A stretch of 64,000 bases of DNA from NCBI RefSeq assembly GCF_029962835.1, contig NC_080584.1, positions 83,356,862 to 83,420,861 on the forward strand, given 5' to 3'. Positions within the stretch are counted from its first letter, which is position 1; each line of letters starts with the position of its first letter. This document shows, one piece after another, positions 22,269 to 49,499 of this stretch. This DNA comes from Magnolia sinica. Taxonomy: Eukaryota; Streptophyta; Magnoliopsida; Magnoliales; Magnoliaceae. The notes beneath the pieces are model-generated. The model was given only the letters and a program-made list of their open reading frames with translations, had not been told where the DNA came from and made no database searches. The position numbers and the translations under genes were made by a program.

Positions 22269-22282
22269 TTGCAGTGAAGGTA

Positions 22283-24216: not shown

Positions 24217-27200
24217 TGTAACATCCTGGATTTTCACTGTTTTGGATTTTCAAAAATCCATCATTTTTTAAATTTAATTAACCTAAATATTACTTATTAA
24301 CCATTAGCACTCAATGTTAGTGTATATAAGGGTGGTACCAGTAAAGAACCGCACCAGTCCGATTAATCAGCCGTAGGAAGCCAATGAATCCGCCCGATCA
24401 CTTGAACATCAGGTGTAGTGTAATGTCCCGCCCAACTAGAATAGTGTCCTGGGGCGTCCACATAGGATTTGCCACGGGACCATTCGTTTAAGTCACTCGT
24501 AGTGAGGTATCACAAATAAATTAGACCAAGATTAGCCCAATTGAATAGACCAGACGGGTCCTGATAGAACCTGGTGCGGGCCTCCAAGCCAGATGACTGT
24601 TAACACCTAGCGACAGCCCGTGCAGGCTATACCGCGACACAGGAAGGTCAGAAAATTATAAAAATTTAGGGGAGCATAGATCTCACTGGGCTTGGGGACT
24701 ATCGCGGACCACGGACCCAGTGGACACCTAGAAGTGGAATCTGGCACTTGCCAGATGTGCCCCACCAATGCCAAAATTGGAATCTGACACGGGTAAATAA
24801 AACTGAGATTTCAGGCATTTCAGCCGTCGAATTTCTTCCAAATTTACGGTAAAGGTCTAATGTATTTTTCTACACCCGTCCACAAATTCTGGGACCCGAT
24901 TGTGGAACGGTGACCGTTGATCACAAATCAGACCCGTGCGATCAAACCCCATATCCGATCGACCTTAAATTTTGCATGGCCCTTCAACGGGCCATGGAGC
25001 ACCCATCCTATAAGTTTCATGGCCAGAGGGCCACCGTAAATGCTCCGATTTTCTAAACGAGATCTATACCGCTTGTTGGTGGGCCACTAGTTCTAAAACT
25101 ATAGAATAATGCCCGTCTCACTGGGCTTGACATCCATCATGGGAATCGGACCTGGGTACTGTCCAGAACCGGTCAATTTGAGCCGAAGGACGAGTGCATG
25201 AGAAGTGCAAATATCCTAAAGGAAGGAGTTGAAACTTAAGTGAATTGAGTCGTCCACTCTTATGCAAAGTTGAGGATTTCGGACTGTCGGTTTGTGACCA
25301 AACTTTACCCGTGGAGAAAGGATATTTTCCTTCTCATATCCATATAGCCGCGGCCCTGATCGACTATCGGTGACCGTTGAACAGACTTTTAATCATATCT
25401 GTCGATCGACGCGTCCAACTGGCAGGCCGATCATATTCATACGTAGATCATCATTAGGGCCAATTATCCAACGATGTATATCAACTTGTACAACCCATAG
25501 TGGGCCCTAGAGGCTAGAAAAACCCTCCCATAGGGTTAGTATAGTAAAAACCCAACACTTGGGGCCATTTCCACCAAATCTGGCATTATAAAAGGGCCTC
25601 ATTTGGGGCACCCTTCTCCCCATACGAAATTGCCCTAGAGAAGGGAGGAGAGAAGAGAGAAAAGGAAGAAGAGGAAGAGGAGAAAGGAGGAGAAAGAGAG
25701 AGGAAGAAGAAAGGAAATGAGTATGTGGTAGGAGGTGGGGTCCAAAGAAGTTCAACCTTGCAACTCTCTACCCATTCTCCAAGGAAACCTCTACCAAACC
25801 CACCCATACCATGAAGCGGAGATAAGAATGGTATATTTCCCTTCAATAGAGCAACTTAGTGTAGATTTCTAGACATTAATGTTGTCTTTCTTGATTTTGA
25901 TTTAGGAAATGGTGGTTTTACCCAAATTCCCAAACCCTAAGATATCAAAGAATGGAAATCTCTCCTTAAGGTGCAGACTAATATCCTTAGGTGGCCAAGC
26001 ACCAATTATAGTTGGAGTTTAATGATTTTGTTTGCTTGGTATGTTGTATGGAAGAATCTAGAGGAACCTAGGGATGACATATTGTTGGAATTGTATGAAT
26101 TGCATGTTTATTTCTCTTTGATGTTAATCTTGTCTCTCTCATGATCTAGTGTATGGATGATTACATGCTCATGTTTGGTTGATTTCTTCTTCTCATATGT
26201 GTTGCTTCATCTTGTGTATGATTCTTTTGCTCGTATGTATTTGATCCCTTGAGGTGTAGGAAGTGCTTAACTTCCTCACTAACCCACGCTACACACATAC
26301 ACCTTATTCATGTTATTAATAGTTTGCTTGCTAGAGAAATTTGAATTGTATGTTGAGCAATATGAGAACATGGGGTTGAATATGCTTGATGTTACATTGA
26401 TAGTTGACATGCTATGAGTCACTATTCCTACCCTTGGGTTGGTCAGGAACACGAGGAGAGCGAAGGTGGTTCCTTTAGTAGGACCACATTGAGGCTAAAC
26501 CCATGGGTTTGGGCGAGTACGTGTGGGCGACAGTAGTTAGCCTACATGGGTCACTTGTACCCGATGTTGTTCTGCTACATACTTGCCTAGGCTAGTACGG
26601 TTTAGTCCACTAGCTGACCCACCTAGTTTGTTAACCTTGTTTGCTCTCATATGTATGGAAACTGGAACACCCTACCACCGTTGTAGCCCATCGATACTAG
26701 ATGAAATATTGATCCACAGTCTTGTGAGCCGGGCATGGTGGAATGGGACACTGTGTCCGAGCTGTCGGCCTACGCTGGGGTGACGCGCCTCCCCGTAGTA
26801 ACCGCGAACGATCCCACATTCAGCACCCCCCATGTGTTTGAAGTCAGGGATGGGGAAAACCCGACGGGGTCAAGGATCGCGGGGTCTCGGCCTCACACAT
26901 TGGGGGGCCTTGGCCTCGCAACTAGTTCAGGGCATTTGATACGTGGGGTGTATCAGATTCCCAAATCTGCTGGATGAATGGACTTAACTAAGAACTCGGT
27001 TAACATCATCATTGCACGACATTAACTAGGTTGGCGACTTGGCAGTCGAGGTCGCTCTGAGGGAGTGTTGACATATGCAATCGTTAGATGGAGTCGCTCG
27101 AGGGAGAGTTGTGGCGAGGGCATACATCATGTCATCCACTATGCATGTGCATTAATAAGATTAGTTAGGTGTTTGTGAATGGTTGCTTTTCATTAAATTA

Positions 27201-27707
27201 TTATTATAATTGATGCTTATTACAACTTATGGCTAATAGCACCCACTGAGTTGATTACTCACTCCCACTCTGGGACGGTGTTTTAAAACACCAACCAGAC
27301 CCGTTCATAGATGCAGGTGATACAGATTTCGTAGAGCCTAGTGATGCGAGCCTCGAGGAGGAGGACGAGTTCTCTTACTTTCAGCTGATGGATGGTTCCC
27401 CGTCGGCCTAGTAGACAGGATTTGGATCGCTGAGTTGTGGACTCAGCTCTATTCTTTTGGACATGATATTCCTTTTGTGATTTTGTTGGGCAACGCCTGG
27501 TGCGACCCTTTTTATATCCTTTTGGACCTGTATAAAATGATCTATTTTCATTTCAGCTGACTTGTGTGATTGTGCTTCATGTTCCAGGAAATTTCAGAAT
27601 GCGCATTTAGACTAGATTAATCGCATATTAATGAAAACTGGTTATAAGTGACCCCGGGAACTGGGGAGTCAAGCGTATGCACGACCCCCGATTTCTAAGG
27701 TGTTACA
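24217..27707 (+). mobile_element. Solo LTR of a long-LTR Ty3/gypsy-type retrotransposon (fossil)
   Basis: Starts TGTAACATCC and ends GGTGTTACA, so the ends are TG...CA with short inverted repeats. The 5 bp CATAT flanks both sides (24212-24216 and 27708-27712). At 3491 bp with no internal gag-pol region it is a solo LTR left by recombination between two LTRs. The long LTR and TGTAACA ends fit the Tekay/Del chromovirus type, an inference from end sequence and length only. A TATAAAAG box lies near 25587, followed by a purine-rich leader-like tract. A second copy lies inverted at 55135-58182 and the start of a third at 63546-64000. The perfect target duplication suggests a moderately young insertion. 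Confidence 0.85.
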
Positions 27708-29055: not shown

Positions 29056-29193
29056 AACTTTGATATCCTTTTAATCCAGGCTTGATGAGCTGACACGCTC
29101 GGCTGCAGCTCCACGTGCACACGAGTGAAGTCGGTGTTGTATGGTACACCAGCCAATTCGCTTCCCTACATGAAGTTCCTGCACTGGGAGGCT

Positions 29194-29611
29194 AGGTGGG
29201 ACCCTCTGTGATGTTTTTGAGAAATCAACCCTGTCCATCCATTTTTCCAGATCATTTTAGAACATGATAAAAAAAATAAGTGAGATTTAAAACACAACTC
29301 AGCCACACAAGAGGAACCAGTGGGGATTGAAAGATCACCGTTGAAACTTTATATGGCCACCGAAGTTTTGGATCATGCTAAGATTCTGTGTTTTTAGTTC
29401 ATCCCAGTGGAAATGACCTTATAAACGGTTCGGACAACATAGACACATAAATTAAGGTTTCAACGGATGATATTTGTTTCCGCACTTTTTCCCGTCGTGT
29501 GACCAGCTTAAGTTTTTTATTCACCTCATTTTTAGTACAGTATCCTAAAATGAGCAACAACAATGGATGGACAGGGTGAATTTATGAAAAACATCACGGT
29601 GGACCCCACCT
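29194..29611. mobile_element. MITE-1 subfamily copy spanning the left edge of the PEX7-like array
   Basis: Left end AGGTGGGACCCTCTGTGATG and right end, reverse complemented, AGGTGGGGTCCACCGTGATG, both followed by TTTTT-A-AAAT-ACCCTGTCCATCCA. This is the complete element; in each later array unit only its right part (from TGGGGATTGAAAGATCACC onward) is present, so one array breakpoint lies inside it at about 29321. Confidence 0.8.
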
Positions 29612-29750
29612 ATCAAAATGCACGTGTATGTATTATAATTTTTTGTAGGGTATTAAAAGATTCAATTCAAGAGAGGGAGGAAACGGTATTCTTGATGTTT
29701 AAAATTTTGAAAAAGAAGAGACCAAAAGTAATTTACCTTTCAAAAATCAA

Positions 29751-30214
29751 AACACATCCAAGATTCAATACATCATCGTCCTTAAATCAAAATACAAGAT
29801 CTTATCGAAGATTCAAGACATTATCGTCCTCAAATCAAAACACAAGAGCTTGTCTAAGATTCAATACATCATCATCCTCAAATCAAAATACAAGATCTTG
29901 TCCAAGATTCAAGACATCATCATCATCCTAAAAAAAAAAAAGAGCTTATCCAAGATTCAATACATCATCGTCCTCAAATCTAAACACAAGAGCTTGTCCA
30001 AGATTCAAAACATCATCGTTCTCAAATCAAAACACAAGAACTTGTCCAAGATTCAAGACATCATCATCCTCAAATCAAAAGACAAGAGCTTGTCTACAAT
30101 TCAATATAACATCGTCTTCAAATCAAAACACAAGAGCTTATCCACGGTTCAATACATCATCGTCCTCAAATAAAACATAAGATCTTATCCACAATTCAAT
30201 ACATCATCATCCTC
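29751..30214 (+). repeat. 48 bp minisatellite, array unit 1
   Basis: About 9-10 copies of a 48 bp repeat with the core words AAGATTCAATACATCATCG and TCCTCAAATCAAAACACAAG. Because 48 is a multiple of 3, frames stay open over long stretches (for example SKIQYIIVLKSKHKSL, 16 residues). Ends right at the position of the PEX7-like start codon. Confidence 0.9.
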
Positions 30215-31143
30215 ACGTCATTCTACTACGGAATGGGCTTCAATGGCGTAGCTGTGAAATTCCACCCGTCTGATCATCGGGTCGCTTTGGTTGTCAAAAA
30301 AGAAATTGCAGGTGCTTCTCTTATTGACACACATGACTTCCAATCAACCGACCACCCTCTCACAATATCAGAGATTATCCAAGATATCAATGATTTCTCA
30401 TGGTGCTCATCAAAACTGCATGATTCTTTGATCTCGGGTGCTAAAGATGGGACTGCATTCCTCTTAAATGTGAATAGTTCTAAACTAATTAAACGCTTCA
30501 ATGCACACATCTCCCGCATTACCTTCATTGATTTCAACCTCACAGATTACACTTTCAACACAGCGTCATGGGACAAGACTGTTAGGCTGTTGAAAATCGA
30601 TGAAGAAAACTGCAAACTAGTTACACACATCCTGATTGTATGAGGTCAGTTAAATGGAATCCCTATGAGAAAAGTCAGCATGCCAGCGCATCTCTTGATG
30701 GAATATAAAGGCTTTGGGATGTCAATGGGAATGCGGCTACACAAACCATCCATGCCGACAATTCGCCGATCATGTCCCTTGACTGGAACTGTTAAGGTTA
30801 ACAGATAGTCAATAACGCATCGGGAGAAAACTGTGCCGAGGTGTGGGACATCAGGTTGCTCAAAGACCCCTTTAAAGTCCTTAGTGGCAAACACACAAAC
30901 AACGTATGCCTGGTGAAGTTTTCGCGGCACAAGAAGTACCAAATCGTTTCTTGCATGTACGATGGGAAGATTGTTCTTTGGGATTATGGTCCAGGGAATC
31001 ATGATTCAAAGACGACAATGTACGATGATAATAAGGGTGTTGTGCGGGGCCTAGATATGAGCAGGATAGAGGACGGATTGTTGGCAAGCACCGGATCTGA
31101 CGGTCTTGTTCGCACATGAATCTACATTCCGCCAGATATTTGA
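30215..31143 (+). pseudogene. PEX7-like WD40 pseudogene, copy 1
   Basis: PEX7 is the WD40 receptor that carries PTS2-tagged enzymes into peroxisomes. This copy reads FNGVAVKFHPSDHR at the N terminus, LHDSLISGAKDGTAFLLNV, ASWDKTVRLLKI, then VWDIRLLKDPFKVLSG, YDGKIVLWDYGPG and GLLASTGSDGLVRT, in the order of the PEX7 blades. Full-length compared with the family (about 309 versus about 317 residues) and without introns. The start codon position is ACG (30215), with the next in-frame ATG at 30233. A one-base deletion near 30620 shifts the frame, and stops follow, including TAA near 30792 and TGA at 31117-31119 in place of the last conserved Trp. Confidence 0.85.
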
Positions 31144-31929
31144 AATTCGCTACATCTTCTTGTCTTTCTTAATCATCTTATACAAAGTACTACTTCTTCT
31201 CGTCTTTCTTAATATTCTTGTAAATAGCATATTCAACAATATTATTGTACATAGTATATTCTAATGGATTTCTAAAGGATTCAATGTTTTTCATTAGTGC
31301 AGAATATTTGTTTTTCATCTAAATGTAGTTAATAATAATTATGCATTGGCGATCTAGTTTATAAAAATTACAACTTTTCAAGACTAGTTTAAAATCTTAG
31401 CAAATTCTCCAATACATATTACTGTTAGATACAATGAGATGAAACTCATTTTCAATTAACAACTAGATGAGGTCTATGTTTGCTAATTCATCTAATTGGG
31501 GATTGAAAGATCACCGTTGAAACTTTGTATGGCCACCAAAGTTTTGGATCATGCTAAGATTCTTTGTATTTTCAGTTCATCCCAGTGGGGATGACCTTAA
31601 AAGCGGTTCAGACGACATATAACTATAAATTAAGGTTTCAACGGATGGTATTTCTTTCTGTACTTTTTCCCGTCGTGTGACCTGCTTAAGTTTTTGATTC
31701 GCCTCATTTTTAGTACAGTATCCTAAAACGAGCTACAACAATGGATGAACGGGGTTGATTTATGAAAAGCATCACGGTGGACCCCACCTATCAAAATGCA
31801 TATGCATGTATCATAATTTTGTATAGGGTATGAAAAGAATTGATTTGAGGGAGGGACGTCGCAACAGTATTCTTGATGTTTAAAATTTTGAAAAAGAAGA
31901 GACCAAATGTAATTTTCTTTTCAAAAATC

Positions 31930-32348
31930 AAAACACATCTAAGATTCAATACATCTTAGTCCTCAAATCAAAACACAAGAGCTTGTCGAAGTTTCAACAT
32001 ATCATTGTCTTCAAATCAAAACACAAGAGCTTGTCCAAGATTCAATACATCATCGTCCTCAAATCAAAACACAAGAGTGTGTACAAGATTCAAGATAGCA
32101 TTGTCCTCAAATTAAAACACAAGAGCTTGTCCACGATTCAATAAATCATCGTCCTCAAATCAAAATACAAGAGCTTGTCCAAGATTCAAGACATTTTCGT
32201 CCTTAAATCAAAACACAAGAACTTGTCCACGATTTAATACATCATTGTCCTCAAATCAAAATACAAGAGCTTATCCACGATTTCATACATCGTCGTCTCC
32301 AAATCAAAACATAAGATCTTATCCACGATTCAATACATCATCATCCTC
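31930..32348 (+). repeat. 48 bp minisatellite, array unit 2
   Basis: Nearly nine copies of the same 48 bp repeat, immediately upstream of PEX7-like copy 2. Confidence 0.88.
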
Positions 32349-33278
32349 ATGTCATTCTATTACGGAATGGGCTTCAATGGTGTAGCCGTGAAATTCCACC
32401 CGTCTAATCATCGGGTCACTGTGGTTGTCAAGAACGAAATTGCAGGTGCTTTTTTTATCGACACACATGACTTCGAATCAACCGACCACCCTCTCACAAC
32501 ATCAGAGATCATCCAGGATATCAATGATTTCTCATGGTACTCATCAAAACTATATGATTCTTTGATCTCAGGTGCTGAAGATGGGACTGCATTCCTCTTG
32601 AATGTGAATAGTTTTAACCCAATCAAACGCTTCAACGCACACATCTCCCGCATCACCTTTGTTGATTTCAACCTCACAGCTGACACTTTCATTACGGCGT
32701 CATAGGACAAAATTGTTAGGCTGTGGAAAGTCGTTGAATAAAACTGTAAATTAGTGTACACACATTCCGATTGTGTGAGCTCAATTAAATGGAATCCCCA
32801 TGAGAAAAGTCAGCATGCCAGCGCATCTTCCGATGGAATATTACGGCTTTGGGATGTTAACGGGAATGCGGCTACACAAACCATCCATGCCGACGATTCG
32901 CCGATCATGTCCCTTGATTGGAACTATTAAGGTTAACAGATAGTCACCACTGCATCGAAAGAAAACTGTGCCGAGGTGTGGGACATCAGGTTGTTTAAAG
33001 ATCCCTTTAAAGTTCTCAGTGACAAACACACAGACGAAGTATGCCTGGTGAAGTTTTCGCGGCACAAGAAGTACTAAATAGCATCTTACTCGTACGATGG
33101 GAAGATTGTTCTTTGGGATTATGGTCCAGGGGATCATAATTCAAAGACGACAATGTACGATGATCATAATGGTGTTTTGCAGGGCATGGATATGAGCACG
33201 ATAGAGGATGGCCTATTGGCAAGCACCGGATCTGATGGGCTTGTTCGCACATGGATTCACATTTCGCCGGATATGTGA
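32349..33278 (+). pseudogene. PEX7-like WD40 pseudogene, copy 2
   Basis: ATG at 32349, 310 codon positions with no net frameshift. Open as far as ITAS, where TAG at 32703-32705 replaces the Trp of the ASWDK motif. Further in-frame stops occur in the VDEEN, WNCQGQ and KKYQIAS segments, so at least four in all. The blades LHDSLISGAEDGTAFLLNV-like, FDGILRLWDVNGN-like and YDGKIVLWDYGPG are readable. Same layout as copy 1, 2134 bp downstream. Confidence 0.85.
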
Positions 33279-34064
33279 GATTCCTTACCTCTTCTTGTAT
33301 TTCTTAATCATCTTGTACAGAGTACTACTTCTTCTCGTCTTTCTTAATATTCTTATAAATAGCATATTCAACAATATTCTTTTACATAGCATATTCCAAT
33401 AGATTTTTAAAGGATTCAATGTTTTCCATTAGTACAGCATATTTCTTTTTCATATAAATATAGTTAACAATAATTATGCATTAGCAATCTTGTTTATAAA
33501 AATTACGACTTTTCAAGTCATGTTTAAAAACTTAGTAAATTCTCCAATACTTAGTTCTGTTAGCTACAATGAGATGAAACTCATTTTCAAGCAGCAACTA
33601 GATGAGGCCTATGTTTGATAATTCATCTAGTTGGGGATTGAAACATCACCATTAAAACTTTGTATGGCCACCGAAGTTTTGGATCATGCTAAGATTGTTT
33701 GTGTTTTCAGTTCATCCCAGTGGGGATGACCTTATAAACAATTCGAACCACATATAAACATAAATTAAGGTTTCAACGGATGGTATTTCTTTTCGTACTT
33801 TTTCCCATCGTGTGACCTGCTTATGTTTTTGATTCGCCTCATATTTAGTACAGTATCCAAAAACGAGCTACAACAATGGATGGACGGGGTGGATTTATGA
33901 AAAACATCACGGTGGACCCTACCTATCAAAATGCATGTGCATGTATCATAATTTTGTACAGGGTATGAAAAGATTTGATTTGAGGGAGGGAGGCAACAGT
34001 ATTCTTGATGTTTAAGATTTTGAAAAAAAAGATAGCAAATGTAATTTTTCTTTCAAAAATCAAA

Positions 34065-34480
34065 ACACATCCAAGATTCAATATATCCTCGTCATCAAAT
34101 CAAAACACAAGAGCTTGTCGAAGATTCAAGACATCATCGTCCTCAAATCAAAACACAAGAGCTTGTCCAAGATTTAACACATCATCGTCCTCAAATCAAA
34201 ACACAAGATCTTGTCCAAGATTTAAGACAACATCGTCCTCAAATTAAAACACAAGAGCTTATTCACGATTCAATTCATTATCGTCATCAAATCAAAACAC
34301 AAGATTTTGTCCAAGATTCAAGATATCATTGTCCTCAAATCAAAACACAAGAGTTTATCCACGATTCAATACATCATCGTCCTCAAATCAAAATACAAGA
34401 TCTTGTCCACGATTTAATACATCATTGTCCTTAAATCAAAACATAAGATCTTATCCACGATTCAATACATCATTATCCTC
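34065..34480 (+). repeat. 48 bp minisatellite, array unit 3
   Basis: Nearly nine copies of the 48 bp repeat before copy 3. Confidence 0.88.
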
Positions 34481-35410
34481 ATGTTATTCTATTACGGAAT
34501 GAGCTTCAATGGCGTAGCCGTGAAATTCTACCTGTCTGAACATCGGGTCGTTGTGGTTGTCAAGAAAGAAATTACAAGTGCTTCTCTTATCAACACACAC
34601 GACTTCCAATCAACTGACCACCCTCTCATAGCATCAGAGATCATCCAGGATATCAATGATTTCTCATGGTGCTCATCAAAACTGCATGATTCTTTGATCT
34701 CGAGTGCTAAAGATGGGACTACATTCCTCTAGGATGTGAATAGTTCTAACCCAATTAAACGCTTCAACACACACATCTCCCACATCACCTCGGTTGATTT
34801 CAACCTCACAGATGACACTTTCATCACAGCGTCGTGGGACCAAACTGTTAGGCTGGGGAAAGTCGATGAAGAAAACGGCAAATTAGTCTACACACATCTT
34901 GATTGTGTGAGCTCGATTAAATGGAATCCTGATGAGAAAAGTCGGCATGCCAGCGCATCTTTCGATGGAATATTACGGCTTTGGGATGTCAACGGGAATA
35001 CGGCTACACAAACCATCCATGCCGATGATTCGCCGATCATGTCCCTTAACTGTAACTGTCAAGGTCAATAGATAGTCACCACTGCATCGGGAGAAAACTA
35101 TGCTGAGATGTGGGACATCAGGTCGCTCAAAGACCCCTTTAAAGTCCTTAGTGGCAAATACACAGACAAAGTATGCCTGGTGAAGTTTTCACGGCACAAG
35201 GTGTACCAAATCACTTCTTGCTCGTACGATGGGAAGATTGTTCTTTGGGATTATGGTTTAGGGGATCATGATTCAAAGATGATAATGTACGATGATTATA
35301 AGGGTGTTGTACAGGGCCTGAATATGAGCAGGATAGAGGATGGCCTGTTGGCAAGCATCGGATCTGATGGGCTTGTTCGCATATGGATCCACATTCCGTC
35401 GGATATGTGA
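34481..35410 (+). pseudogene. PEX7-like WD40 pseudogene, copy 3 (two stops only)
   Basis: ATG at 34481 and stop at 35408-35410, one continuous frame of 310 codon positions. It is interrupted only by TAG at 34730-34732 (in place of the Trp of FLWNV) and TAG at 35069-35071 (CQGQ segment). Readable blades: KLHDSLISSAKDGTTFL, FITASWDQTVRLGKVDEENG, HASASFDGILRLWDVNGN, MWDIRSLKDPFKVLSGKY, SYDGKIVLWDYGLGDHD and LLASIGSDGLVRIWIHIP. With copy 6 it is the least damaged of the array. Confidence 0.88.
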
Positions 35411-36184
35411 GATTCCCTACCTCTTCTTGTCTTCCATAATCATCTTGTACAGAATACTACTTCTCGTCTTTCTTAATATTCTTGTAAATAACATATTCAA
35501 CAATATTCTTTTACATAGCATATTTCAATGAATTTTTAAAGGATTCAATGTTTTCCATTAGTGCAGCATATTTATTTTTCATGCAAATGCAGTTAACAAT
35601 AATTATGCATTGGCGATATAGTTTATAAAAATTATGAATTTCCAAGACTAGTTTAAAACTGTAGCAAATGCTCCAATACATATTACTGTTAGCTACAATG
35701 AGATGAAACTCATTTTCAATTAGCAACTAGATGAGGCCTATGTTTGCTAATTCATCTAGTTGGGGATTGAAAGATCACCGTTGAAACTTTGTATGGCCAT
35801 CGAAGTTTTGGATCATGCTAAGATTCTTTGTGTTTTCTGTTCATCCCAGCGGGGATGCCCTTATAAACGGTTCAGACGACATATAAACATAAATTAAGGT
35901 TTCAACAGATGGTATTTCTTTCCACACTTTTTTCCATCATGTGACCTGCTTAAGTTTTTTATTCGCCTCATTTTTAGTACAGTATCCTAAAACCAGCTAC
36001 AACAATGGATGGACGGGTGAATTTATGAAAAACATCACAGTAGACCCCACTTATCAAAATGCATGTGCATGTATCATAAATTTGTACAGGGTATGAAAAG
36101 ATTCGATTCGAGGGAAGGAGGCAACGGTATTCTTGATGTATAAAATTTAGAAAAAGAAGATACCAAATGTAATTTTTCTTTCAA

Positions 36185-36606
36185 AAATCAAAACACATTT
36201 AAGATTCAATGCATTATCGTCCTCAAATCGAAACACAAGATCTTGTCGAAGATTCAAGACATCAGTCTTTAAATCAATAGACAAGAGCTTGTCCAAGATT
36301 CAACACATCATCGTCCTCAAATAAAAACACAAGATCTTGTCCAAGATTAAAGACATCATCTTCCTCAAATCAAAACACAAGAGCTTATTCACGATTCAAT
36401 ACATCATCATCCTTAAATCAAAACACAAGATCTTGTCCAAGATTCAAGACATCATTGTCCTCAAATCAAAACACAAGAGCTTGTCCACGATTCAATACAT
36501 CATCGTCTTTAAATTAAAACACAAGATCTTGTCTACGATTTAATACATCACCGTCCTCAAATCAAAACATAAAATCTTGTCCACGATTCAATAAATCATT
36601 ATCTTC
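36185..36606 (+). repeat. 48 bp minisatellite, array unit 4
   Basis: Nearly nine copies of the 48 bp repeat before copy 4. One frame (36337-36543) is open through four repeats. Confidence 0.88.
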
Positions 36607-37535
36607 ATGTCATTCTACTACGGAATGGGCTTCAATGGTGTGGCCGTGAAATTCTACCCGTCTGAACATCGGGTCGTTGTGGTTGTTAAGAACGAAATTG
36701 CAGGTGCTTCTCTTATCGACATACATGACTTCCAATCAACTAACCACCCTCTCACAACATCAGAGATTATCGAGGATATCAATGATTTCTCATGGTGCTC
36801 ATCAAAACTACATGATTCTTTAATCTCGGGTGCTGAAGATGGGACTGCATTCCTGTAGGATGTGAATAGTTCTAACTCAATTAAACGCTTCAACGCACAC
36901 ATCTCCCACATCACCTCGGTTGATTTCAACCTCACAGATGACACTTTCATCATAGCGTCGTGGGACAAAAATGTTGGGCTGTGAAAAGTCGATGAAGAAA
37001 ACTACAAACTAGTCTACACACATCCCGATTGTGTGAGCTCGATTAAATGGAATCCCCATGAGAAAAGTCGGCATGCCAGCGCATCTTTCGATGGAATATT
37101 ACAGCTTTGGGATGTCAACGGGAATGCGATTATACAAACCATCTATGCCGACGATTCGCTGATCATGTCCCTTGATTGGAACTGTCAAGGTCAATAGATA
37201 GTCATGACTGCATCGGGAGAAAACTATGCCGAGGTGTGGGACATCAGGTCGCTTAACGACACCTTTAAAGTCATCAGTGGCAAACACACAGACAAGTATG
37301 ACTAGTAAAGTTTTCGCGGCACAAGAAGTACCAAATCGCATCTTGCTCGTACGATGAGAAGATTCTTCTTTGAGATTATGGTCCAGGGGATCATGATTCA
37401 AATACGACAATGTACGATGATCATAAGGGTGTTGTGCAGGGCTTGGATATGAGCAGGACAAAGGATAGCCTGTTGGCAAGCACCGGATCTAACGGGCTTG
37501 TTCGCACATGGATCTACATTCCGCCGGATATGTGA
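36607..37535 (+). pseudogene. PEX7-like WD40 pseudogene, copy 4
   Basis: ATG at 36607. First stop TAG at 36856-36858 is at the same codon as the first stop of copy 3, so the two copies share ancestry or gene conversion there. A second stop (TGA) replaces a Trp in the RLWKV position, and a one-base deletion in the HTDEVCLVKF segment shifts the frame (total length 929 bp). The C-terminal blade LLASTGSNGLVRTWIYIPPD is still readable. Confidence 0.85.
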
Positions 37536-38314
37536 GATTCGCTACCTCTTCTTGTCTTTCTTAATCATCTTGTACAGAGTACTACTTCTTTTCATCTTTC
37601 TTAATATTCTTGTAAATAGCATATTCAACAATATTCTTTTGCATAGAATATTCCAATGAATTTCTAAAGGATTCAATGTTTTCCATTAGTATAGCATATT
37701 TCTTTTTCATGTAAATGTAGTTAACAATAATTATGCATTGGCAATATAATTTATAAAAATTATGACTTTTCAAGATTATTTTAAAACCATAGCAAATTCT
37801 CTAATACATATTACTGTTAGCTACAATGAGATGAAACTCATTTTCAATTAACAACTAGATGAGGCCTATGTTTGGTAATTCATCTAGTTGGGGATGGAAA
37901 GATCACCATTGAAACTTTGTATGGCCACGGAAGTTTTGGATCATGCTAAGATTCTTTGTGTTTTCAGTTCATCCCATTGGGGATGACCTTATAAACGGTT
38001 CGAACAGTATATAAACAAAAATTAAGGTTTCAATGGATGGTATTTCTTTCCGCACTTTTCCCCGTCGTGTGACCTGCTTAAGTTTTTTATTCATCTCATT
38101 TTTAGTATAGTATCCTAAAACGAGCGACAACAATGGATGGACGGGGTGGATTTATGAAAAACATCACGGTGGACCTCACCTATCAAAATGCATGTGCATG
38201 TATCATAATTTTGTACATGGTATGAAAAGATTCGATTTGAGGGAGGGAGATAACGGTATTCTTGATGTTTAAAATTTTAAAAAAGAAGATACCAAATGTA
38301 ATTTTTCTTTCAAA

Positions 38315-38737
38315 AATCAAAACATATCCAAGATTCAATACATCAATGTCATCAAATCAAAACAGAAGAGCTTGTTGAAGATTCAAGACATCATCGTCCT
38401 CAAATCAAAATACAAGAGCTTGTCCAAGATTCAATACATCATCGTCCTCAAATCAAAACACAAGAGTTTATCAAAGATTCAAGACATCATCGTCCTCAAA
38501 TCAAAACACAAGAACTTATCCATGATTCAATACATCATCGTCCTAAAATTAAAACATAAAATCTTGTCTAATATTTAAGACATCATCGTCCTCAAATTAA
38601 AACACAAGAGCTTATCCACGATTCAATACACCATCGTTCTCAAATCAAAATACCCGAGCTTGTCCACGATATAATACATCATCGTCCTTAAATCAAAACA
38701 TAAGATATTATCCACGATTCAATACATTATCATCATC
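38315..38737 (+). repeat. 48 bp minisatellite, array unit 5
   Basis: Nearly nine copies of the 48 bp repeat before copy 5; the frame 38372-38578 stays open over four repeats. Confidence 0.88.
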
Positions 38738-39667
38738 ATGCCATTCTACTACGGAATGGGCTTCAATGGCGTAGCCGTGAAATTCCACCCGTCTGAACAT
38801 CGAGTCGCTGTGGTTGTTAAGGAAGAAATTGCAGGTGCTTCTCTTATTGACACACACGACTTCCAATCAACCGACCACCCTCTCAAATATTAAAGATTAT
38901 CCAGGATATCAATGATTTCTCATGGTGCTCATCAAAATTGCATGATTCTTTGATTTCGGGTGCTGAAGATGGGATTACATTCATCTGGAATGTGAATAGT
39001 TCTAACCCAATCAAATGCTGCAACGCACACATCTCCCGCATCACCTCCATTAATTTCAACCTCACAGATGACACTTTCATCACAACATCGTGAGATAAAA
39101 CTGTTAGGTTGTGGAAAGTCGATGTAGAAAACTGCAAACTAGTCTACACACATCTCGATTTGTGTGAGCTAAGTTAAATGAAATCCCCATGAGAAAAGTC
39201 AGCATGCCAGCGCATCTTTCGATGGAATATTACGGTTTTGGGATGTCAACGGGAATGCGGCTATACAAACCATCCATGTCGACGATTCGCCTATCTTGTC
39301 TCTTGACTGGAACTATTAAGGTCAACAGATAGTCATCACTACATCAGGAGAAAACTGTACCAAGGTGTGAAAAATCAGGCTGTTCAAAGACCCCTTTAAA
39401 GTCCTCAGTGACAAACACACAGACGAAGTATGCCTGGTGAAGTTTTCGCAGCACAAGAAGTACCAAATCATTTCTTGGTCGTACGATGGGAAGATTGTTC
39501 TTTGGGATTATGGTTCAGAGGATCATGATTCAAAGACGACAATGTACGATGGTCATAAGGGTGTTATGCAAGGCCTGAACATGAGTAGGATAGAGGATGG
39601 CCTGTTGGCATGCACTGGATCTGATGGGCTTATTCGCACATGGATCCACATTCCGTCGGATAAGTGA
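38738..39667 (+). pseudogene. PEX7-like WD40 pseudogene, copy 5
   Basis: ATG at 38738. A one-base loss near 38887 is balanced by a one-base gain near 39160, so the total length is still 930 bp but the middle is out of frame. Several stops are present, including TGA for the Trp of ASWDK. It keeps GITFIWNVNSSNPIK, with the blade Trp intact, and from 39437 an open C-terminal part with SYDGKIVLWDYGSEDHD and LLACTGSDGLIRTWIHIPSD. Confidence 0.85.
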
Positions 39668-40443
39668 GATTCATTACCTCTTCTTATCTTTCTTAATCAT
39701 CTTGTACAGAGCAATACTTCTTCTCGTCTTTCTTAATATTCTTATAAATAGCATATTCAACAATATTCTTTTACATAGCATATTCCAATGGATTTCTAAA
39801 GGATTTAATGTTTTCCATTAGTGCAACATATTTCTTTTTAATGTAAATGTAGTTAACAGTAATTATGTATTGGCGATCTAGTTTATAAAAATTACGACTT
39901 TTCATGACTATTTTAAAACCTTAGTAAATTCTCCAATACATATTACTGTTAGATACAATGAGATGAAACTCATTTTCAATTAGCAACTAGATGAGACCTA
40001 TGTTTGCTAATTCATCTAGTTGGAGATTGAAAGATCACCGTTGAAACTTTGTATGGCTGCCGAAGTTTTGGATCATGCTAAGATTCTTTGTGTTTTCAGT
40101 TCATCCCAGTGAGGATGACCTTATAAACGGTTCAGACGACATATAAACATAAATTAAGGTTTCAATGGAGGGTATTTCTTTCGGCACTTTTCTCCATCAT
40201 GTGACCTGCTTAAGTTTTTTATTCACCTCATTTTTAGTACAGTATCCTGAAACGAGTTACAACAATGGATGGTCGGGTGGATTTATGAAAAACTTCACGG
40301 TGGACCCCACCTATGAAAGTGCATGTGCATGTATCAAGATTTTGCACAGGCTATGAAAATATTCGATTCGAGGGAGGGAGGCAACGGTATTCTTGATATT
40401 TAAAATTTTAAAAAAGAAGATACCAAATGTAATTTTTCTTTCA

Positions 40444-40868
40444 AAAATCAAAACACATCCAAGATTCAATACATCATTATCCTCAAATCAAAATACCAGA
40501 GCTTGTCGAAGATTCAAGACATCATTGTCCTCAAATCAAAACACAAGAGCTTGTTCAAGTTTTAACACATCATCATCCTCAAATCAAAACACAAGAGCTT
40601 GTCCAATATTCAAGACATCATCGTCCTCAAATCAAAACATAAGAGCTTATCCATGATTCAATACATCATCCTCTTCAAATGAAAACACAAGATCTTGTCC
40701 AAGATTCAAGACTTCATCGTCCTCAAATCAAAACATAAGAGCTTGTCCACAATTTAATACATCATCGTCCTTAAATCAAAACACATGAGATTGTCCACGA
40801 TTCAAAACATCATCGTCCTCAAATCAAAACATAAGATCTTGTCCATGATTCAATACATCATCGTCATC
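40444..40868 (+). repeat. 48 bp minisatellite, array unit 6
   Basis: About nine copies of the 48 bp repeat. A frame starting at 40785 reads through the last repeats in phase with PEX7-like copy 6. Confidence 0.88.
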
Positions 40869-41795
40869 ATGTCATTCTATTTCGGAATGGGCTTCAATGG
40901 CGCAGCCGTGAAATTTCACCCGTCTAAACATTGGGTCGCTATGGTTGTCAAGAAAGAAATTGCAGTTGCTTTTCTTTTCGACACACACAACTTCCAATCA
41001 ACCGAACAACCTGCCACAACATCAAAGATCAACCAGGATATTAATGATTTCTCATGGTGCTCAAAACTGCATGATTCTTTGATCTTGGGAGCTGAAGATG
41101 GGACTGTATTCCTCTGGAATGTGAATAGTTCTAACCCCATCAAACGCTTCAAAGAACACATCTCCCGCATCACCTCCGTTGATTTCAACCCCACAGATGA
41201 CACTTTCATCACAGCATCGTGGGACAAAACAGTTAGGCTGTGGAATGTTGGTGAAGAAAACTGCAAACGAGTCCACGAACATGCCGATTGTGTGAGCTCA
41301 GCTAAATGGAATCCCCATGAGAAAAGTAAGCATGCCAGCAAATCTTTCGATGGAATATTACATTTTTGGGATGTCAATGGGAATGTGGTTACACAAACCA
41401 TCCATGCCGACGATTCGCCGATCATATCACTTGGCTGAAACTGTCAAGGTCAACAGATAGTCACCACCGCATCGGTAGAAAACTGTGCCAAGGTGTGGGA
41501 GATCAGGTCGCTCAAAGACGCCTTTAAAGTCCTCAGTGGCAAACACATAAACGAAGTATGCCCGGTGAAGTTTTGGCTTCATAAGAAGTACCAAATCGCT
41601 TCTTGGTCGTACGATGGGAAGATTGTTCTTTGGGATTATGGTCCAGGGGATCATGATTCAAAGACGACAATGTACGATGATCATAAGGGTGTTGTGTAAG
41701 GCCTGAATATGAGCAGGACAGAGGATGGCCTGTTGGCAAGCACCGGATCTGATGGGCTTGTTTGCACATGGATCCACATTCCGCTGGATTTGTGA
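40869..41795 (+). pseudogene. PEX7-like WD40 pseudogene, copy 6 (closest to the ancestral protein)
   Basis: ATG at 40869 and stop at 41793-41795: one frame of 309 codon positions, three bases shorter than copy 3 through loss of one Ser codon. It has two in-frame stops, TGA at 41436-41438 (Trp of the SLDWNC segment) and TAA at 41697-41699. It keeps WD40 residues lost in other copies: LHDSLILGAEDGTVFLWNV, RITSVDFNPTDDTFITASWD, KTVRLWNVGEENCKRVHEHA, DCVSSAKWNPHEKS and LHFWDVNGN. Compare PEX7 blades of the type HDSLLISAVADGSVKLWDL and FLTSSWDDTVKLW. It may be the founder-like end of the array, or simply the slowest to decay. Confidence 0.88.
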
Positions 41796-42144
41796 GATTC
41801 GCTACCTCTTCTTGTCTTCCTTAATCATCTTGTACAGAGTACTACTTCTCGTATTTCTTAATATTCTTGTAATAGCATATTCAACAATATTCTTTTACAT
41901 AACATATTCCAATGAATTTCTAAAGGATTTAATGTTTTCCATTAGTGCAGCATATTTCTTTTTCATGTAAATGTAGTTAACAGTAATTATGTATTGGAGA
42001 TCTAGTTTATAAAAATTATGACTTTTCAAGACTAGTTTAAAACCTTAACAAATTTTCCAATACATATTACTGTTAACTACAATGAGATGAAACTCATTTT
42101 CAATTACCAACTAGATGAGGCCTATGTTTGCTAATTCATCTAGT

Positions 42145-42694
42145 TGGGGATTGAAAGATCATCGTAGAAACCATGTATAGCCACCGAGGTTTTGGATTAT
42201 GCTAAGATTCTTTGTGTTTTTAGTTCATCCCAGTGGGGATGACCTTATAAACGGTTCAGACAGCATATCAACATAAATTAAGGTTTCAACGGATGGTTTT
42301 TCTTTCTGCACTTTTCCCCGTCGTGTGACCTGCTTAAGTTTTTGATTCGCCTCATTTTTAGTACAGTATCCTAAAACAAGCTACAACAATGGATGAATGG
42401 GGTGGATTTATGAAAAACATCACGGTGGACCCCACCTATTAAAATGCATGTGCATATATCATAATTTTGTACAGGGTATGAAAAGATTCGATTCAAGGGA
42501 GGGAGGCAACGGTATTCTTGATGTTTAAAATTTTGAAAAAGAAGATACCAAATGTAATTTTCCTTTCAAAAATCAAAACACATCCAAGATTCAATACATC
42601 ATCGTCCTCAAATCAAAACATAAGAGCTTATCGAAGATTGAAGACATTATCGTCCTCAAATTAAATCACAAGAGCTTGTCCAAGATTCAACACA
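42145..42694 (+). repeat. Truncated seventh array unit
   Basis: Repeats the MITE-1 right part, the spacer and about 2.5 minisatellite repeats (42570-42694), then stops abruptly within a repeat after CAAGATTCAACACAT. The sequence beyond is unrelated to the array. Confidence 0.9.
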
Positions 42695-45410
42695 TGAACG
42701 CTGGGAGATCAGCGCCCACGCTTTAGGTGATTTATTTTTGTCTTTGCTTTTTTTTTTTTTTGGTGTGGGGGATGTAACTTTTGATTGTAAATTTGGAGTC
42801 GCCACTAGCCACTTAATCTTCAAAATCCTATAGTTGGCTAGAACCTGTGAAATGTCTAAGGCAAGAGAGATCCGAAAATTCTCTTGCCTTATATTGACTC
42901 CTAGACTGCGATCCGGGATTCCGAGTAAGGGACCTCGGTTACAAAGAGGGAAGGTGTTAGGCACCCTCTTTGCCCATACGAATGTATGGTCTCTAGTTGG
43001 TGAAGTAAGAAATCTCAAGGGATGAATGATATGGTTAGAGTAAAACTAGGCACACATGGATGTCTGATGTAAAAAGATTCAGGATTCCGACGAGCCACAG
43101 AGCATACGTCCAAAAAAGTGTCTAGAAAGGCGGATATGATAATGCTTATGTAAATATAAAAAAAAGTGGACTAGATCACTAGAAATTTCTAGTATGACAG
43201 GATCTAATGTACGGCAAGTCACAGAGCATACATTCACTAGCAATCTAGAGAAGCAGAGGGGTTGAGAAAAGAAGAGATGTTATGATAAATGCTTGGATAA
43301 AGGAAAAATGAAATGATCTTTGGCTTGATCTCGAGTTGGCTAAGACAAAAACTACACTATAATCAATTCAGGCTAGACTTGTGGGTTGAGATGGTTGGGA
43401 GGAGGCTAAGGGGGTAGCTAAAAAAAATCAGATCTTGGAGGATTGGAGCTCATTCTCACCTTTACTCTCTTCCTCTATCTCCCTCTCTCTCACTCTCTCT
43501 CACTTGGAAATTTGGAATGAGATGTTGTTGTTGTGTGAAATGCGAAGAGGAGAGGGCTATTTATAGCCTTTTGGGATGACATTGTGGTAATTGTTGGGTT
43601 TGTGAAGGGTAAAAGCTGACATGGCAGCTTGGGATTGGTTGAGGAGAGAGAAATGTCATGTGGCATGCTCTTATGGGCTCTTGGGGGTAGGTAAAAGGGT
43701 AAATAGAGTGAACTACAGAGGTAATTTCATATGAAAGTTGACTTTGGGACGAGGGACAGCTGTGTGCCCAGAGGGGACACCTGTCGGATAAGGAGCGGCA
43801 GTCGAATTAAGGCCAGCGGTAGTCAGACTACCGTCCAGGCTGGGTTTGGTTCGGGATTTGGTCGGTGGGCTCTCTTTAATGTTTTGGCTCGACCCAAAGT
43901 CTTCTTTCTGGATTTTAGCTCAAAATGGTTGGGTGTATTTTCGAGGTTTGTACTGATTCGCATGTACGCTCTGGCTTGGGTGATGGTTTAGGGTTTGGGT
44001 TCGGGTTTGAGATAGGATAAGGCTAGGTTTGGGGTTATGGTTCAGGTTGGGTCTAGGCTAGGGTTATGGTTTAGGCTAGGTCTAGGGCTAGGGTTAGGGT
44101 TATGGTTCAAGCTGGGTCCCGCGATAGGGTTAGGGTTTAAGTTTATGATATGATCAGGATTTTCGGATTATTCTAGTTCTTTCGAGATACTAGCCTGGGT
44201 GGGATGTCTACGGATGCCACGACACCCCACCATTCTGGTCAGAAAAGGGTAGTGGTTCGAATCTGTTACCTGCCATTATATCGTTGTCAGTTGACTGTTT
44301 GGAAAAGAGATGACTCACACATAATGATGGTTGATGAAAACGTTGTGATTGTCCATGCGCGTTCTGCGGCATTACGGGTCACGAATCACAACCCTTTCAT
44401 GTCAGATTTATTAATAGCATTGGAAGGTAAGTATGAAGAGTAGGGCCTCTATGCGTCAATGCGGCTTCATGAGGATTGCTGTACTTTTTGTATCTTTCGT
44501 TTCCTTTGCTACGTAATCACTCTAGGAGTATTTGTTCCGTTTGATGGTCAAAGTGGTTAGCTACCCTATGTGTTGATGTGGCCTTAAGGGGAACTCACTA
44601 TGCCGACTTCGACTCGATCAAACTTTCCGAACATTCCGGACTAGATATGTGCGGGTAATCTTTTGTCATGGGTCTGCTAATTATGATACTTTGGTTACAA
44701 TGGATCTTCTTCACTTTGAGTTTGATTATTCTTACCAGAGATAGATCAAGTCACTTTCACTTGCCTTCGACTCGTATGATTGTCCAGATATGGAGATCGG
44801 GCCAATCGTACTTGTATCATATACGGATTCGATCATCCTCCGGGGAGACCGGAAGAGATCGAATCTTATTTTGCTGCTTATACTGACCGCAACTGGAGAA
44901 TATGGAAGATTCCTCAGTGTACTGCGTGCCACGTGCGTTTTTTGAAAATTTTTGTTTGAAAACTATTCTCTTTGGAACTAAATTCCGTAGGGATTTTATT
45001 GAAAATATTTTTGGATTTTTCAAAAAATATTTTTGAATTTTTTTTAAAAATATCCATTCGAACTCGCGGGTGGGTGTTGTCGTCCGATTTTTATTTGCGA
45101 AAATTAAGCAAACAGTTGCGTTGCCTCCACTAATGAACTTATGTAGCTAATGGTGTTTATTAGAGATATTTTTTGAGATTTTTGAAACATCCATCCGATC
45201 TCGCGGGAGGGCATCGTCATCCGGCTTTTATTTGCGGTTGATAAAACAGGTGTGTTGCCTCCATTGATGAACTAATGGGGCTCTAACCATGATTTATTGC
45301 ATTTTTTTATTTTTCTTTCCTTTTTTGCATTTTATCATCTCATTTTATCAAAGATTCTCAATTTCTCGTGAGATATTGGGATTATCTCATGAGAAGGATC
45401 CCCTTTTCTC
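42695..45410 (+). mobile_element. Fossil fragment of a Tat/Ogre-like Ty3/gypsy retrotransposon (LTR and leader sequence)
   Basis: The block TTTGGAGTCGCCACTAGCCA, GAGTAAGGGACCTCGGTTAC and GAGGGAAGGTGTTAGGCACC is a well-known signature of plant Tat/Ogre LTR-region sequence. A CTATTTATAGCC box (near 43556) and a run of GGGTTAGGG-like words (43985-44130) also fit. No gag-pol domains were seen and no matching second LTR or target duplication was found, so it looks like a broken, truncated piece. Its right limit is uncertain; it may reach about 45.8 kb. Confidence 0.55.
45050..45285 (+). repeat. Direct duplication of about 120 bp
   Basis: Two copies share TCGCGGG, GTCGTCCG/GTCATCCGG, TTTTATTTGCG, GTTGCCTCCA-T and GATGAACT. 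It lies within the Tat/Ogre-like fragment. Confidence 0.65.
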
Positions 45411-45830
45411 CTTTTTCGGCTTTTGTCCGCTGGTCCTGATGGTGATCCGACCGTCCCATCTATTCAAAGGGGACAGGCGTGCTGTCCCACACCCATCTGG
45501 TGGTGGGCGGTAGTCCGTCTACCACCTGACACCGGTTTGTCTAGTGGTCCGGCACCAGTGCTGGTCTGAGCATGGTGCCTACTCCCCTATTTCAGTTCTT
45601 CCTCCAATCTATCAAGGGACGCCATTGTTGCTCCCTGGAAGCTTCGTTGTGGTGGATTTATGCTCCTTTGAAGTCCTTTCCTTGTTCTACTCCTTCATCG
45701 ATCCTTCCAGGTGGCTTGTGTGCTCACTGGATTGAATTTTGTTTGTGTTTTTGCTGGATCATGCATGTGGAGTATTTGGAGGGTCCATTTGTGGCTTTGG
45801 ATCTTCTTCTTGGACATAGGAGGGTTGTGA
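45411..45830. other. Unassigned sequence right of the Tat/Ogre-like fragment
   Basis: Contains overlapping 60-90 codon frames on the plus strand (45544-45735 and 45572-45844) without known motifs. It could be more retrotransposon sequence or older host DNA. Confidence 0.3.
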
Positions 45831-45835
45831 TCAGG

Positions 45836-45913
45836 ACCCACTAGGAAATCAATACTAAGACCTCAGTGTTGAAACGAGGTATCTTTCACTCAGTCTACCA
45901 CTTGAGCTATGGA
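45836..45913 (-). mobile_element. SINE family 1, head fragment, minus strand
   Basis: Reverse complement of the tRNA-like head: AAGACCTCAGTGTTGAAACG, GTATCTTTCACTCAGTCTAC and TTGAGCTATGGAT. There is no T run at the left, so the tail part is missing. Confidence 0.6.
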
Positions 45914-46367
45914 TCAAGGTGTGAGTCAAGTCGTTCTTCGATCCAAGCAACTCATGTAATATATAGTATATATTCACGATAGAATTATATTGCTGTTATA
46001 CATTCCTTCAAGTCTAACTCAAAATCAACATACGAGCCAGGTGTGAAATTCTATAACCTTTTTCAGCCTTATATGACCAATACTAGGGCTGTCAATGGGC
46101 CTGGGCTGGCCCGACACCTTGGGTCGGGCTTAGGCTGGAGTAATAGGCCTGAGGGTCGGGTTCGAACTTAAAATTTTGGCTCGTTTCATAATTGGACTGG
46201 GCTTAGACTTGGCCTTCTAAAACCCAACACCCAGCTCGGCCAATATTTATTTAAAATTAAAATCCCTTATTTTAAAAAATTCCCCTCCCTCGTCCAAGAA
46301 TTCAAAAATCAAAATGTTTCTCTTCCCAAGAATTAAATTGAACCAGTGACACTGTCAGTAGTGGTGC

Positions 46368-46790
46368 TCCATGGGCTCCACTATAATATATTTGTTTTAT
46401 CCAAGCTATCCATCAATTTTCCATATCATTTTAGGGCATAACCCAAAAAATGAGGCCGATCAAAATCTTAGATGGACCACACCACTCAAAAAAGCAGTAA
46501 TTTAAGGCCTACCATTAAAAGCTTCCAAGGGCCACAAAAAGCTTGAATCAATAAGATATTTGTGTTTTCCCTTCATATATCCAATTCTTTCTAACCTAAT
46601 CAACAACTTGGATGGCAAATAAACATTGCAATCAATTGTAAGCGTTCAATCACCATTGTTTTCCTGTGGTGTGGTCCACCTGAGATTTGTATCTACCTTA
46701 TTTTTGGCCTCATGCCTAATAATGATCCAAAATGGATGGATGGCATGATAAAACACATACATCACTGTGGAGCCCAAAAATCATCGATCG
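46368..46790. mobile_element. MITE-1 copy inside hAT copy B
   Basis: GTGGTGCTCCATGGGCTCC at the left and CACTGTGGAGCCC at the right, as at 12472-13105 but without the internal duplication seen there. Confidence 0.7.
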
Positions 46791-46930
46791 CCCTGTAATA
46801 TCGTTGCTACTGACAATGTCCTCTAAATGCCATTTCAATGACCACGAGGACAACCTTCAGGTTCTTTCTCGAAAATGGGGTTTCTCCTTCCTTATCACTC
46901 TTCTCCCCTCTAATTTTCAATATATATTAC

Positions 46931-47443
46931 TTCTCGTGAGGTCGAGCTGTGTGGGCCCCATTGTACTGTCTCTCGGACATCAACACCGTGCAGTTGATGG
47001 GTACCCTTTAGTTTATAGGATATGCCAAAAATCAGCCATACAGGGAACTTCGGTGGGCCATACCATCTAAAATCATGTGGAAACATGCCTAAAATATATA
47101 AAAGTACTTGGTGGGGCCCACCTGAGTTTTGGATGCGGTTGAAACTTGATATGACCCCTCATTGAAGCGGGACACACACAATGGATGGTCTGGATTTGTG
47201 AACCACATCTCTGTAGGCCCGATAAATGATTGTGAATGTTTTAATGGGAGGGTAACCCCTCTCCACTGTTGTATGTGGTGTGACCCACCCAAGTCATGCA
47301 TTGACTTGATTTTTAATCCCGTGGCCCACCATAGAATGGTGGGTCTGATTGATTGGATAGATGTTCAACGTACACAACCATGGGGCCCACACAGCTCGAC
47401 CTCAGGGGAAGTTCCCATGAGGTCGACCTCATAGTACCATTTC

Positions 47444-47446
<3 letters not shown>
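46931..47446 (+). mobile_element. MITE-2 copy inside hAT copy B
   Basis: Carries the family blocks ACATCAACACCGTGCA, CATACCATCTAAAATCATG and GATTGACTTGATTTTTAA and ends AGTACCATTTCCC. Its left end is shortened (begins CTTCTCGTGAGGTCGAGC). A TA run lies on both sides (short at the left, long at 47447-47477). The equivalent place in copy A is just a TA microsatellite (13511-13537). Confidence 0.8.

Positions 47447-47477
<31 letters not shown>
47447..47477 (+). repeat. (TA)n microsatellite flanking MITE-2
   Basis: Perfect TA run immediately after the MITE-2 right end. Confidence 0.9.

Positions 47478-47482
<5 letters not shown>

Positions 47483-49036: not shown

Positions 49037-49070
<34 letters not shown>
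49037..49070 (+). repeat. (CT)n microsatellite
   Basis: Long in copy B, only a few repeats in copy A near 14966. Confidence 0.9.
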
Positions 49071-49397: not shown

Positions 49398-49399
<2 letters not shown>

Positions 49400-49474
<75 letters not shown>

Positions 49475-49498: not shown

Positions 49499-49499
49499 T

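Follow-up and report, generated by a model that had tools for sequence, protein, structure and literature searches.

How does a relative of a conserved peroxisomal import gene come to stand in a row of kilobase-long tandem units, every one of them broken, and did the copies multiply before or after the gene was lost? The question is posed by a 64,000-nucleotide stretch of Magnolia sinica DNA (the window; C12:83356862-83420861 in the searched assembly of 1.84 Gb and 127 contigs), which contains an array of frames resembling PEX7, the conserved component of peroxisome import that acts as receptor for the type 2 peroxisomal targeting signal (PTS2). A first-pass annotation had described six PEX7-like units of about 2.13 kb, intronless, tandemly amplified and all decayed, and this description holds, with coordinates correct to one base. 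We consider it likely that a PEX7-like paralogue, intact until then, multiplied in one short burst, after which every copy decayed without detectable selection.

Read in the majority frame, all six copies are broken: they carry 23 stops in total (four, five, two, five, five and two in units 1 to 6), the frames of units 1, 4 and 5 contain 1-bp indels, and the longest open stretch per copy measures 83-189 codons, so that the window holds no intact PEX7-type frame. Each unit's WD40 frame of 309 codons can be aligned over its whole length, and this six-copy alignment contains no stop or frameshift common to all six units. Changes in the frame that are private to one copy (126 nonsynonymous, 54 synonymous and 13 stops) follow the neutral expectation (128.4, 53.7 and 10.9), with an overall ratio of nonsynonymous to synonymous rates (omega) of 0.97 and single-unit values of 0.54-1.92, none of them significant. 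Since no disabler is found in all six and no copy is constrained, amplification most likely came before loss. The first-pass annotation had placed amplification during or after the loss of function, or else supposed that one member stayed active while the others decayed; neither proposal is borne out, the first because no disabler is universal, though some stops did arise during the burst, and the second because no copy shows significant constraint.

The relationships among the copies point to a burst that was short. The six-unit tree is nearly a star, with tips of 0.049-0.065 and inner branches no longer than 0.009 (0.013 for the frame by itself), and units 3 and 4 form its sole strongly supported pair (99/98). 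The nearest relative that we found outside the array lies at C4:37.552-37.555 Mb; it is decayed and contains a 1.4 kb insertion, and its identity to the units (81-86% in pieces) lies below that of the units among themselves (88.0-90.8%), a partial test that agrees with the copies being each other's closest kin. When this C4 relative serves as outgroup, 341 derived states can be polarised, and 227 of them occur in a single copy. States shared by two copies are spread over all unit pairs, and 79 of the 104 are C-to-T; their number is close to that expected from recurrent hits on a star with strong rate variation, namely 103 doubletons at a gamma shape of 1, 63 at a shape of 2.2 and 125 at a shape of 0.5. 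Neighbouring units are not significantly more alike than others, as 10% of unit orders reach the same level. No two units share an identical run longer than 75 bp, so that longer tracts have not recently been converted between them. The topology is thus that of a short burst without later homogenisation, with small departures from a pure star. Substitution proceeds at a similar rate throughout the unit (0.027-0.035 per site and copy), and C-to-T together with G-to-A makes up 54% of singletons. That an assembler duplicated a single unit, as the near-constant spacing might suggest, is very unlikely and close to negligible given the 9-12% divergence and the 58-82 substitutions private to each copy.

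What was amplified is PEX7-like, as the first-pass annotation held, and yet the housekeeping PEX7 is not what was copied: the array consists of copies of a long-diverged paralogue, whose family forms at least three other arrays. We took as founder the majority sequence of the six copies and set codon 194 to CAA for all tests on it. In phmmer comparisons with a panel of five proteins, the founder protein scores 184.7 bits to Arabidopsis PEX7, 99.3 to human PEX7, 84.2 to WDR5, 43.8 to TEX1 and 38.7 to MSI1, and unit 6 scores 169.4, 86.0, 101.9, 42.6 and 32.8, respectively; the Arabidopsis sequence of the panel finds yeast Pex7 (3w15) as its best PDB match. The founder aligns with Arabidopsis PEX7 in one colinear stretch (founder 9-302 to PEX7 8-308, 40% identity) and is 38% identical to the intact PEX7 of the same genome on contig C3. 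PEX7 is therefore the closest relative among the WD40 genes compared, over a full-length, colinear frame.

Derivation of the frame from another WD40 family is nonetheless worth weighing. Unit 6 scores a little higher to WDR5 than to human PEX7; in the Pfam search of the frame, 25 of 35 families were displayed and none bore the name PEX7, the best being a THOC3 propeller at 151.5 of 305 bits, far below its cut-off; and when the founder and each of its ends were searched against the PDB, the best 60 of 621, 115 and 380 matches were to other WD40 chains and did not include Pex7. PDB and Pfam alone are insufficient to name the frame PEX7-like. The decision comes from the margin by which both founder and unit 6 prefer Arabidopsis PEX7 to WDR5, and from a whole-genome search with the unit 6 read-through, in which PEX7 (C3, E 2.5e-45) and PEX7-like loci rank ahead of C16 (E 5e-14), the first locus taken for another, putative WD40 gene. 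Four doubtful loci ahead of or near C16 (L042-L045) also match PEX7-like proteins best, with WDR5 and MSI1 far behind or without a match, and we find an origin outside PEX7 highly improbable. AlphaFold models of three read-through copies have a mean predicted local distance difference test score (pLDDT) of 29.3.

The founder may, however, have ceased to do what PEX7 does. Of the 76 residues that do not vary between Arabidopsis, human and yeast PEX7, it keeps 41 and differs at 35, and unit 6 keeps 36. Position E108 is R in both; it corresponds to human E113, a PTS2-binding glutamate. The founder was probably no longer a PTS2 receptor. Published work locates PTS2 in a conserved groove at the propeller's top face (PMC12339391, PMC4585086).

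Before the burst, the founder lineage was coding. With codon 194 read as CAA, its frame contains no stop in 309 codons, whereas a neutral walk to 40% protein identity accumulates 16.9 stops on average and at least 8 (60 runs). The founder keeps 74 of 131 sites shared by Arabidopsis and human PEX7 and matches Arabidopsis at 49 of 168 other sites (p 2e-6). Against an intact paralogue, omega is 0.34 (synonymous changes 139/209, nonsynonymous 274/706; Fisher p 1.9e-12) at a synonymous divergence (dS) of 1.63, near saturation. The open frame, the kept residues and the low omega together indicate that the lineage was coding and constrained, though loosely, until the array formed.

Three further tandem arrays, on C4, C9 and C11, allow this course of events to be compared. 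Their copy counts are lower bounds, the search scoring only the best candidates; all 41 analysed copies are broken, and the longest open stretch is 232 codons. The C4 array (19.851-19.875 Mb, grouped by us) has about 12 copies spaced at 2.0-2.2 kb, with pairwise identities of 90-98% and an omega of 0.97; stops 54, 189 and 233 are each present in eight of nine analysed copies, so this array grew, or was levelled, after death. In the C11 array (83.370-83.407 Mb; 20 copies analysed, 5 shorter ones left out; identity 84-97%, mean 89.7%), the majority sequence uses three frames in turn, with two frame changes, and four stops each occur in 13-14 of the 20 copies. The shared disablers of C4 and C11 indicate that arrays also grow from dead copies. 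The C9 array (80.738-80.772 Mb; 12 copies analysed, four shorter matches left out; 87-93%) has a majority frame open over 309 codons, and all 12 copies are broken, with no disabler in all 12 and an omega of 1.07, which supports a repetition of the C12 course. Its tree has some inner structure, with branches up to 0.017; because its median tip of 0.056 is close to that of C12 (about 0.06), the two bursts may be similar in age. The C9 and C11 arrays lie closest to the PEX7-like gene at C11:62868642, with the panel's other WD40 proteins far removed. Copies of the C9 array are interspersed with LTR (long terminal repeat) retrotransposon gag/pol frames (L036 5746-9884).

Several observations weigh against so clean a sequence of burst and decay. 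The founder is reconstructed, not observed. Stop 196 is common to units 1 and 2, and stops 84 and 197 to units 3 and 4, so part of the decay overlaps the burst. Codon 194 is TAA in units 1, 2 and 5 and in the C4 outgroup, and CAA in the other three copies, and this one stop may have been present at the founder's birth; a stop at codon 119 is likewise found in units 2 and 5 and in the outgroup. Doubletons other than C-to-T number 25, against the 6-13 that a rough reckoning expects on a pure star, and by this excess the burst was short but not instantaneous. The C-to-T rate is 0.052 in CG, 0.052 in CHG and 0.041 in CHH contexts; such rates give methylation no specific support and neither prove nor exclude it. 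In the C9 array, a 1-bp deletion (alignment columns 531-540) may be common to as many as six of the 12 copies, the stops at codons 45 and 259 each occur in four of 12, and some stops are present in three or four copies.

These points invite the view that the founder was already a recent pseudogene, stopped at codon 194, and that the burst multiplied dead DNA in the manner of a satellite. The TAA in half of the copies and in the outgroup would fit, as would the C4 and C11 arrays, whose disablers are shared by eight of nine and by 13-14 of 20 copies. We nevertheless judge codon 194 to have been CAA ancestrally, given a per-site rate of C-to-T about seven times that of T-to-C, and three copies have kept that codon; with no disabler present in all six units and an open majority frame in the C9 array, dead DNA at the outset is an unlikely, though not a far-fetched, origin.

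Tandem Repeats Finder and self-BLAST delimit an array (29321-42695) of six head-to-tail units and a truncated seventh (Table 1). The earlier census of six units stands, having overlooked the seventh, the 48-bp minisatellites and the transposon-derived ends. From left to right, a unit comprises a transposon-derived upstream part, the minisatellite, the 309-codon intronless frame, and a 3' part that ends in a repeat resembling a miniature inverted-repeat transposable element (MITE). The first ~300 bp have relatives, at 69-75%, among the window's other transposon remnants. At the left edge of the array, an inverted arm (29193-29260) matches unit position 227-294 (about 29545-29615) at 81%; both arms of this foldback element are found only in unit 1 with its left flank, and units 2-7 begin inside the element, with its right part only. 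The repeat junction thus probably fell inside the foldback element, with unit 1 at the original site. The minisatellite, of 8-10 copies, ends at the start codon or within 10 bp of it, and must already have been present in the founder, as all units carry it in register; unit 1 has one 48-bp repeat more than units 2-6 (a 48-column indel). Codon 1 is ACG in unit 1 and ATG in the other five, and codon 7 is ATG in all six. Pieces similar to the MITE-like repeat, up to ~140 bp, occur at no fewer than 31 other places in the genome, among the best 40 of 151 candidates. In the window self-comparison, no unit similarity was found at 1e-3 to the right of unit 7, except for transposon pieces.

Table 1. 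Features of the PEX7-like array and its borders (positions in the window).
Feature	Position	Strand	Size (bp)	Remarks
Foldback transposon remnant	29193..29620		~400	inverted arms; spans the left edge of the array
Unit 1	29321..31496	+	2176	frame 30215-31143; stops at codons 165, 194, 196, 302; 1-bp deletion at 30622
48-bp minisatellite, unit 1	29756..30215	+		9.6 copies, at start codon
Unit 2	31497..33631	+	2135	frame 32349-33278; stops at codons 119, 131, 194, 196, 243
48-bp minisatellite, unit 2	31941..32349	+		8.5 copies
Unit 3	33632..35760	+	2129	frame 34481-35410; stops at codons 84, 197
48-bp minisatellite, unit 3	34070..34481	+		8.6 copies
Unit 4	35761..37888	+	2128	frame 36607-37535; stops at codons 84, 126, 197, 232, 256; 1-bp deletion at 37294
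48-bp minisatellite, unit 4	36201..36599	+		8.4 copies
Unit 5	37889..40020	+	2132	frame 38738-39667; stops at codons 119, 145, 148, 194, 211; 1-bp deletion and 1-bp insertion
48-bp minisatellite, unit 5	38325..38738	+		8.6 copies
Unit 6	40021..42144	+	2124	frame 40869-41795; stops at codons 191, 278; in-frame 3-bp deletion
48-bp minisatellite, unit 6	40458..40869	+		8.6 copies
MITE-like foldback repeat	41961..42092			near the 3' end of unit 6; aligned stretch in units 1-6
Unit 7	42145..42695	+		truncated within its own minisatellite; frame gone
48-bp minisatellite, unit 7	42582..42695	+		cut at 2.4 copies
LTR-retrotransposon-like sequence	42696..46100	-		adjoins the cut unit 7, unrelated to the units; read by eye, end uncertain

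We propose that the array descends from a PEX7-like paralogue without introns, which until the burst was coding and under selection but was probably no longer a PTS2 receptor. In that one short burst it would have been copied, along with its transposon-derived upstream part, 5' minisatellite and 3' MITE-like repeat, to give at least seven units arranged head to tail. Each copy would then have decayed independently, mainly by C-to-T change and with no recent exchange between copies. The founder would have been expressed and functional; the burst itself may have ended that function, for example by repeat-triggered silencing, and the loss may have been harmless, intact relatives or PEX7 having remained.

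Alternatively, the array could be kept because of some non-coding function, for instance by giving rise to small RNAs through which its PEX7-like relatives are silenced. The presence of four arrays in a single genome would suit such a role, and the prevalence of C-to-T and G-to-A among singletons is a possible outcome of silencing. Against it, the evenness of change across the unit leaves no kept segment visible, and the window unit has no DNA similarity to the C4, C9 and C11 arrays at E 1e-8; we consider a retained non-coding role improbable and favour decay after a burst.

The wider family supplies the context for this course. The intact PEX7 that the first-pass annotation had suggested looking for in the same genome is found at C3:120492398-120493342: a single intronless open frame, 316 codons long, which shares 78% identity with Arabidopsis PEX7 and keeps 71 of the 76 invariant residues. 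As PEX7 itself is here one open frame, matching the intronless frame of the array, the earlier option of an intronless parent is favoured, and the absence of introns from the array frame is uninformative on a retrocopy origin. Five long stop-free PEX7-like frames were also analysed (C11:61311176, C11:61315252, C11:62868642, C5:9786669 and C5:9811735); four are full-length, and C5:9811735 matches PEX7 only from residue 51. The pair at C11:61.31, with 76% protein identity, is under selection (dS 0.50, nonsynonymous divergence (dN) 0.14, omega 0.28, p 4.9e-14). In a protein tree in which most inner branches lack resolution, the branches of three array founders measure 0.97-1.12, against 0.06 for the PEX7 of this genome and 0.2 for that of Arabidopsis, and on these lengths we call the family fast-evolving. 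The two C5 genes share gaps relative to PEX7 that are absent from the C4, C9, C11 and C12 members. Around them, at C5:9.61-9.86 Mb, PEX7-like pieces are loosely clustered on either strand, some with an open frame, and L032 (C5:9.783 Mb), near a PEX7-like gene, starts with more than 1 kb of (AACCTA)-like repeats.

Repeats in front of the frame are not confined to C12. The C4 array has its own 48-54 bp minisatellite upstream of its frames (L028 1924-2370 and like places), which ends ~87 bp before the ATG; kinship with the C12 minisatellite was rejected, 322 of 500 shuffles scoring as high. A 41-bp repeat stands three times at the ATG of the intact C11:62868642, and no repeat leader was found at the C3 PEX7. 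When 12 leaders were compared with random 300-base pieces, four fell below 5% (two C12 units, C4 and C11:62868642) and the other eight, including PEX7, did not.

Set beside PEX7 (the Arabidopsis protein and yeast 3w15), the founder has a like length, a colinear WD40 plan, an intronless frame as in the PEX7 of its own genome and 38-40% identity; the differences are its many changed invariant residues and, unlike PEX7, window copies that are all broken. Eleven invariant residues are lost in all eight PEX7-like sequences (five genes and three founders), namely Y11, G32, E70, E104, E108, V109, E194, V213, A238, F282 and W301, the exception being E104, where window unit 6 has E; 14 of the 76 are kept in all eight, e.g., W68, W134, D178, W220, D221 and W264.

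Birth-and-death tandem gene families are known in plants, and the array resembles them in its tandem copies, many pseudogenes and some intact relatives. It differs in that its kin is a conserved import receptor, that the window copies show no recent exchange, and that two arrays resemble short bursts from an open frame, with every analysed copy dead. The D4Z4/DUX4 macrosatellite likewise has a kilobase tandem unit with one intronless frame each; the window array differs from it in having 6.3 units, ~11% divergence, no intact frame and no recent exchange between units. Our literature search found no report of tandem or dead PEX7 arrays, or of a PEX7-like family, in plants. That genes are born and die in tandem is already known; for a fast PEX7-like family in which several arrays consist of dead copies, we found no precedent.

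With one intact PEX7 and a fast, non-canonical family in at least four arrays, this genome offers a replicated natural experiment: two arrays combine an open majority frame with broken copies only, and two share disablers and grew with or after decay. The arrays allow one to ask whether tandem amplification itself kills genes, and the intact PEX7-like proteins raise the further question of their role, if not in PTS2 import. As a speculation that we hold only tentatively, a PEX7 copy could have become a fast intronless family that no longer reads PTS2 and is repeatedly arrayed, shut down and lost, as in genetic conflict, with leader minisatellites that may seed the bursts.

In the rest of the window, ten open frames (of 23; outside the array or running past its end) gave nothing at Pfam cut-offs, and Rfam at gathering scores and ARAGORN likewise found nothing; a viral-contig scan gave one 31-residue match, taken as chance. 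The LTR-like sequence at the right edge of the array has, by eye, a TATAAATA (TATA) box and a pyrimidine-rich leader on its minus strand, and no second copy was found in the window self-comparison. Direct repeats of ~5 kb flank the array (11677-16586 and 46116-51344; 81-89% in pieces), and 25038-27705 is inverted relative to 55137-57823 (82%); both are probably transposon copies. A repeat of ~500 bp, its copies flanked by (TA)n, lies at 18934-20611, 20989-21548, 46929-47445 and 49458-50029; one copy is a tandem array of a 459-bp unit, and the repeat has the look of an element whose insertion sites are (TA)n runs. Two stretches, 22149-22269 and 43988-44137, consist of degenerate telomere-like TTAGGG(T) repeats.

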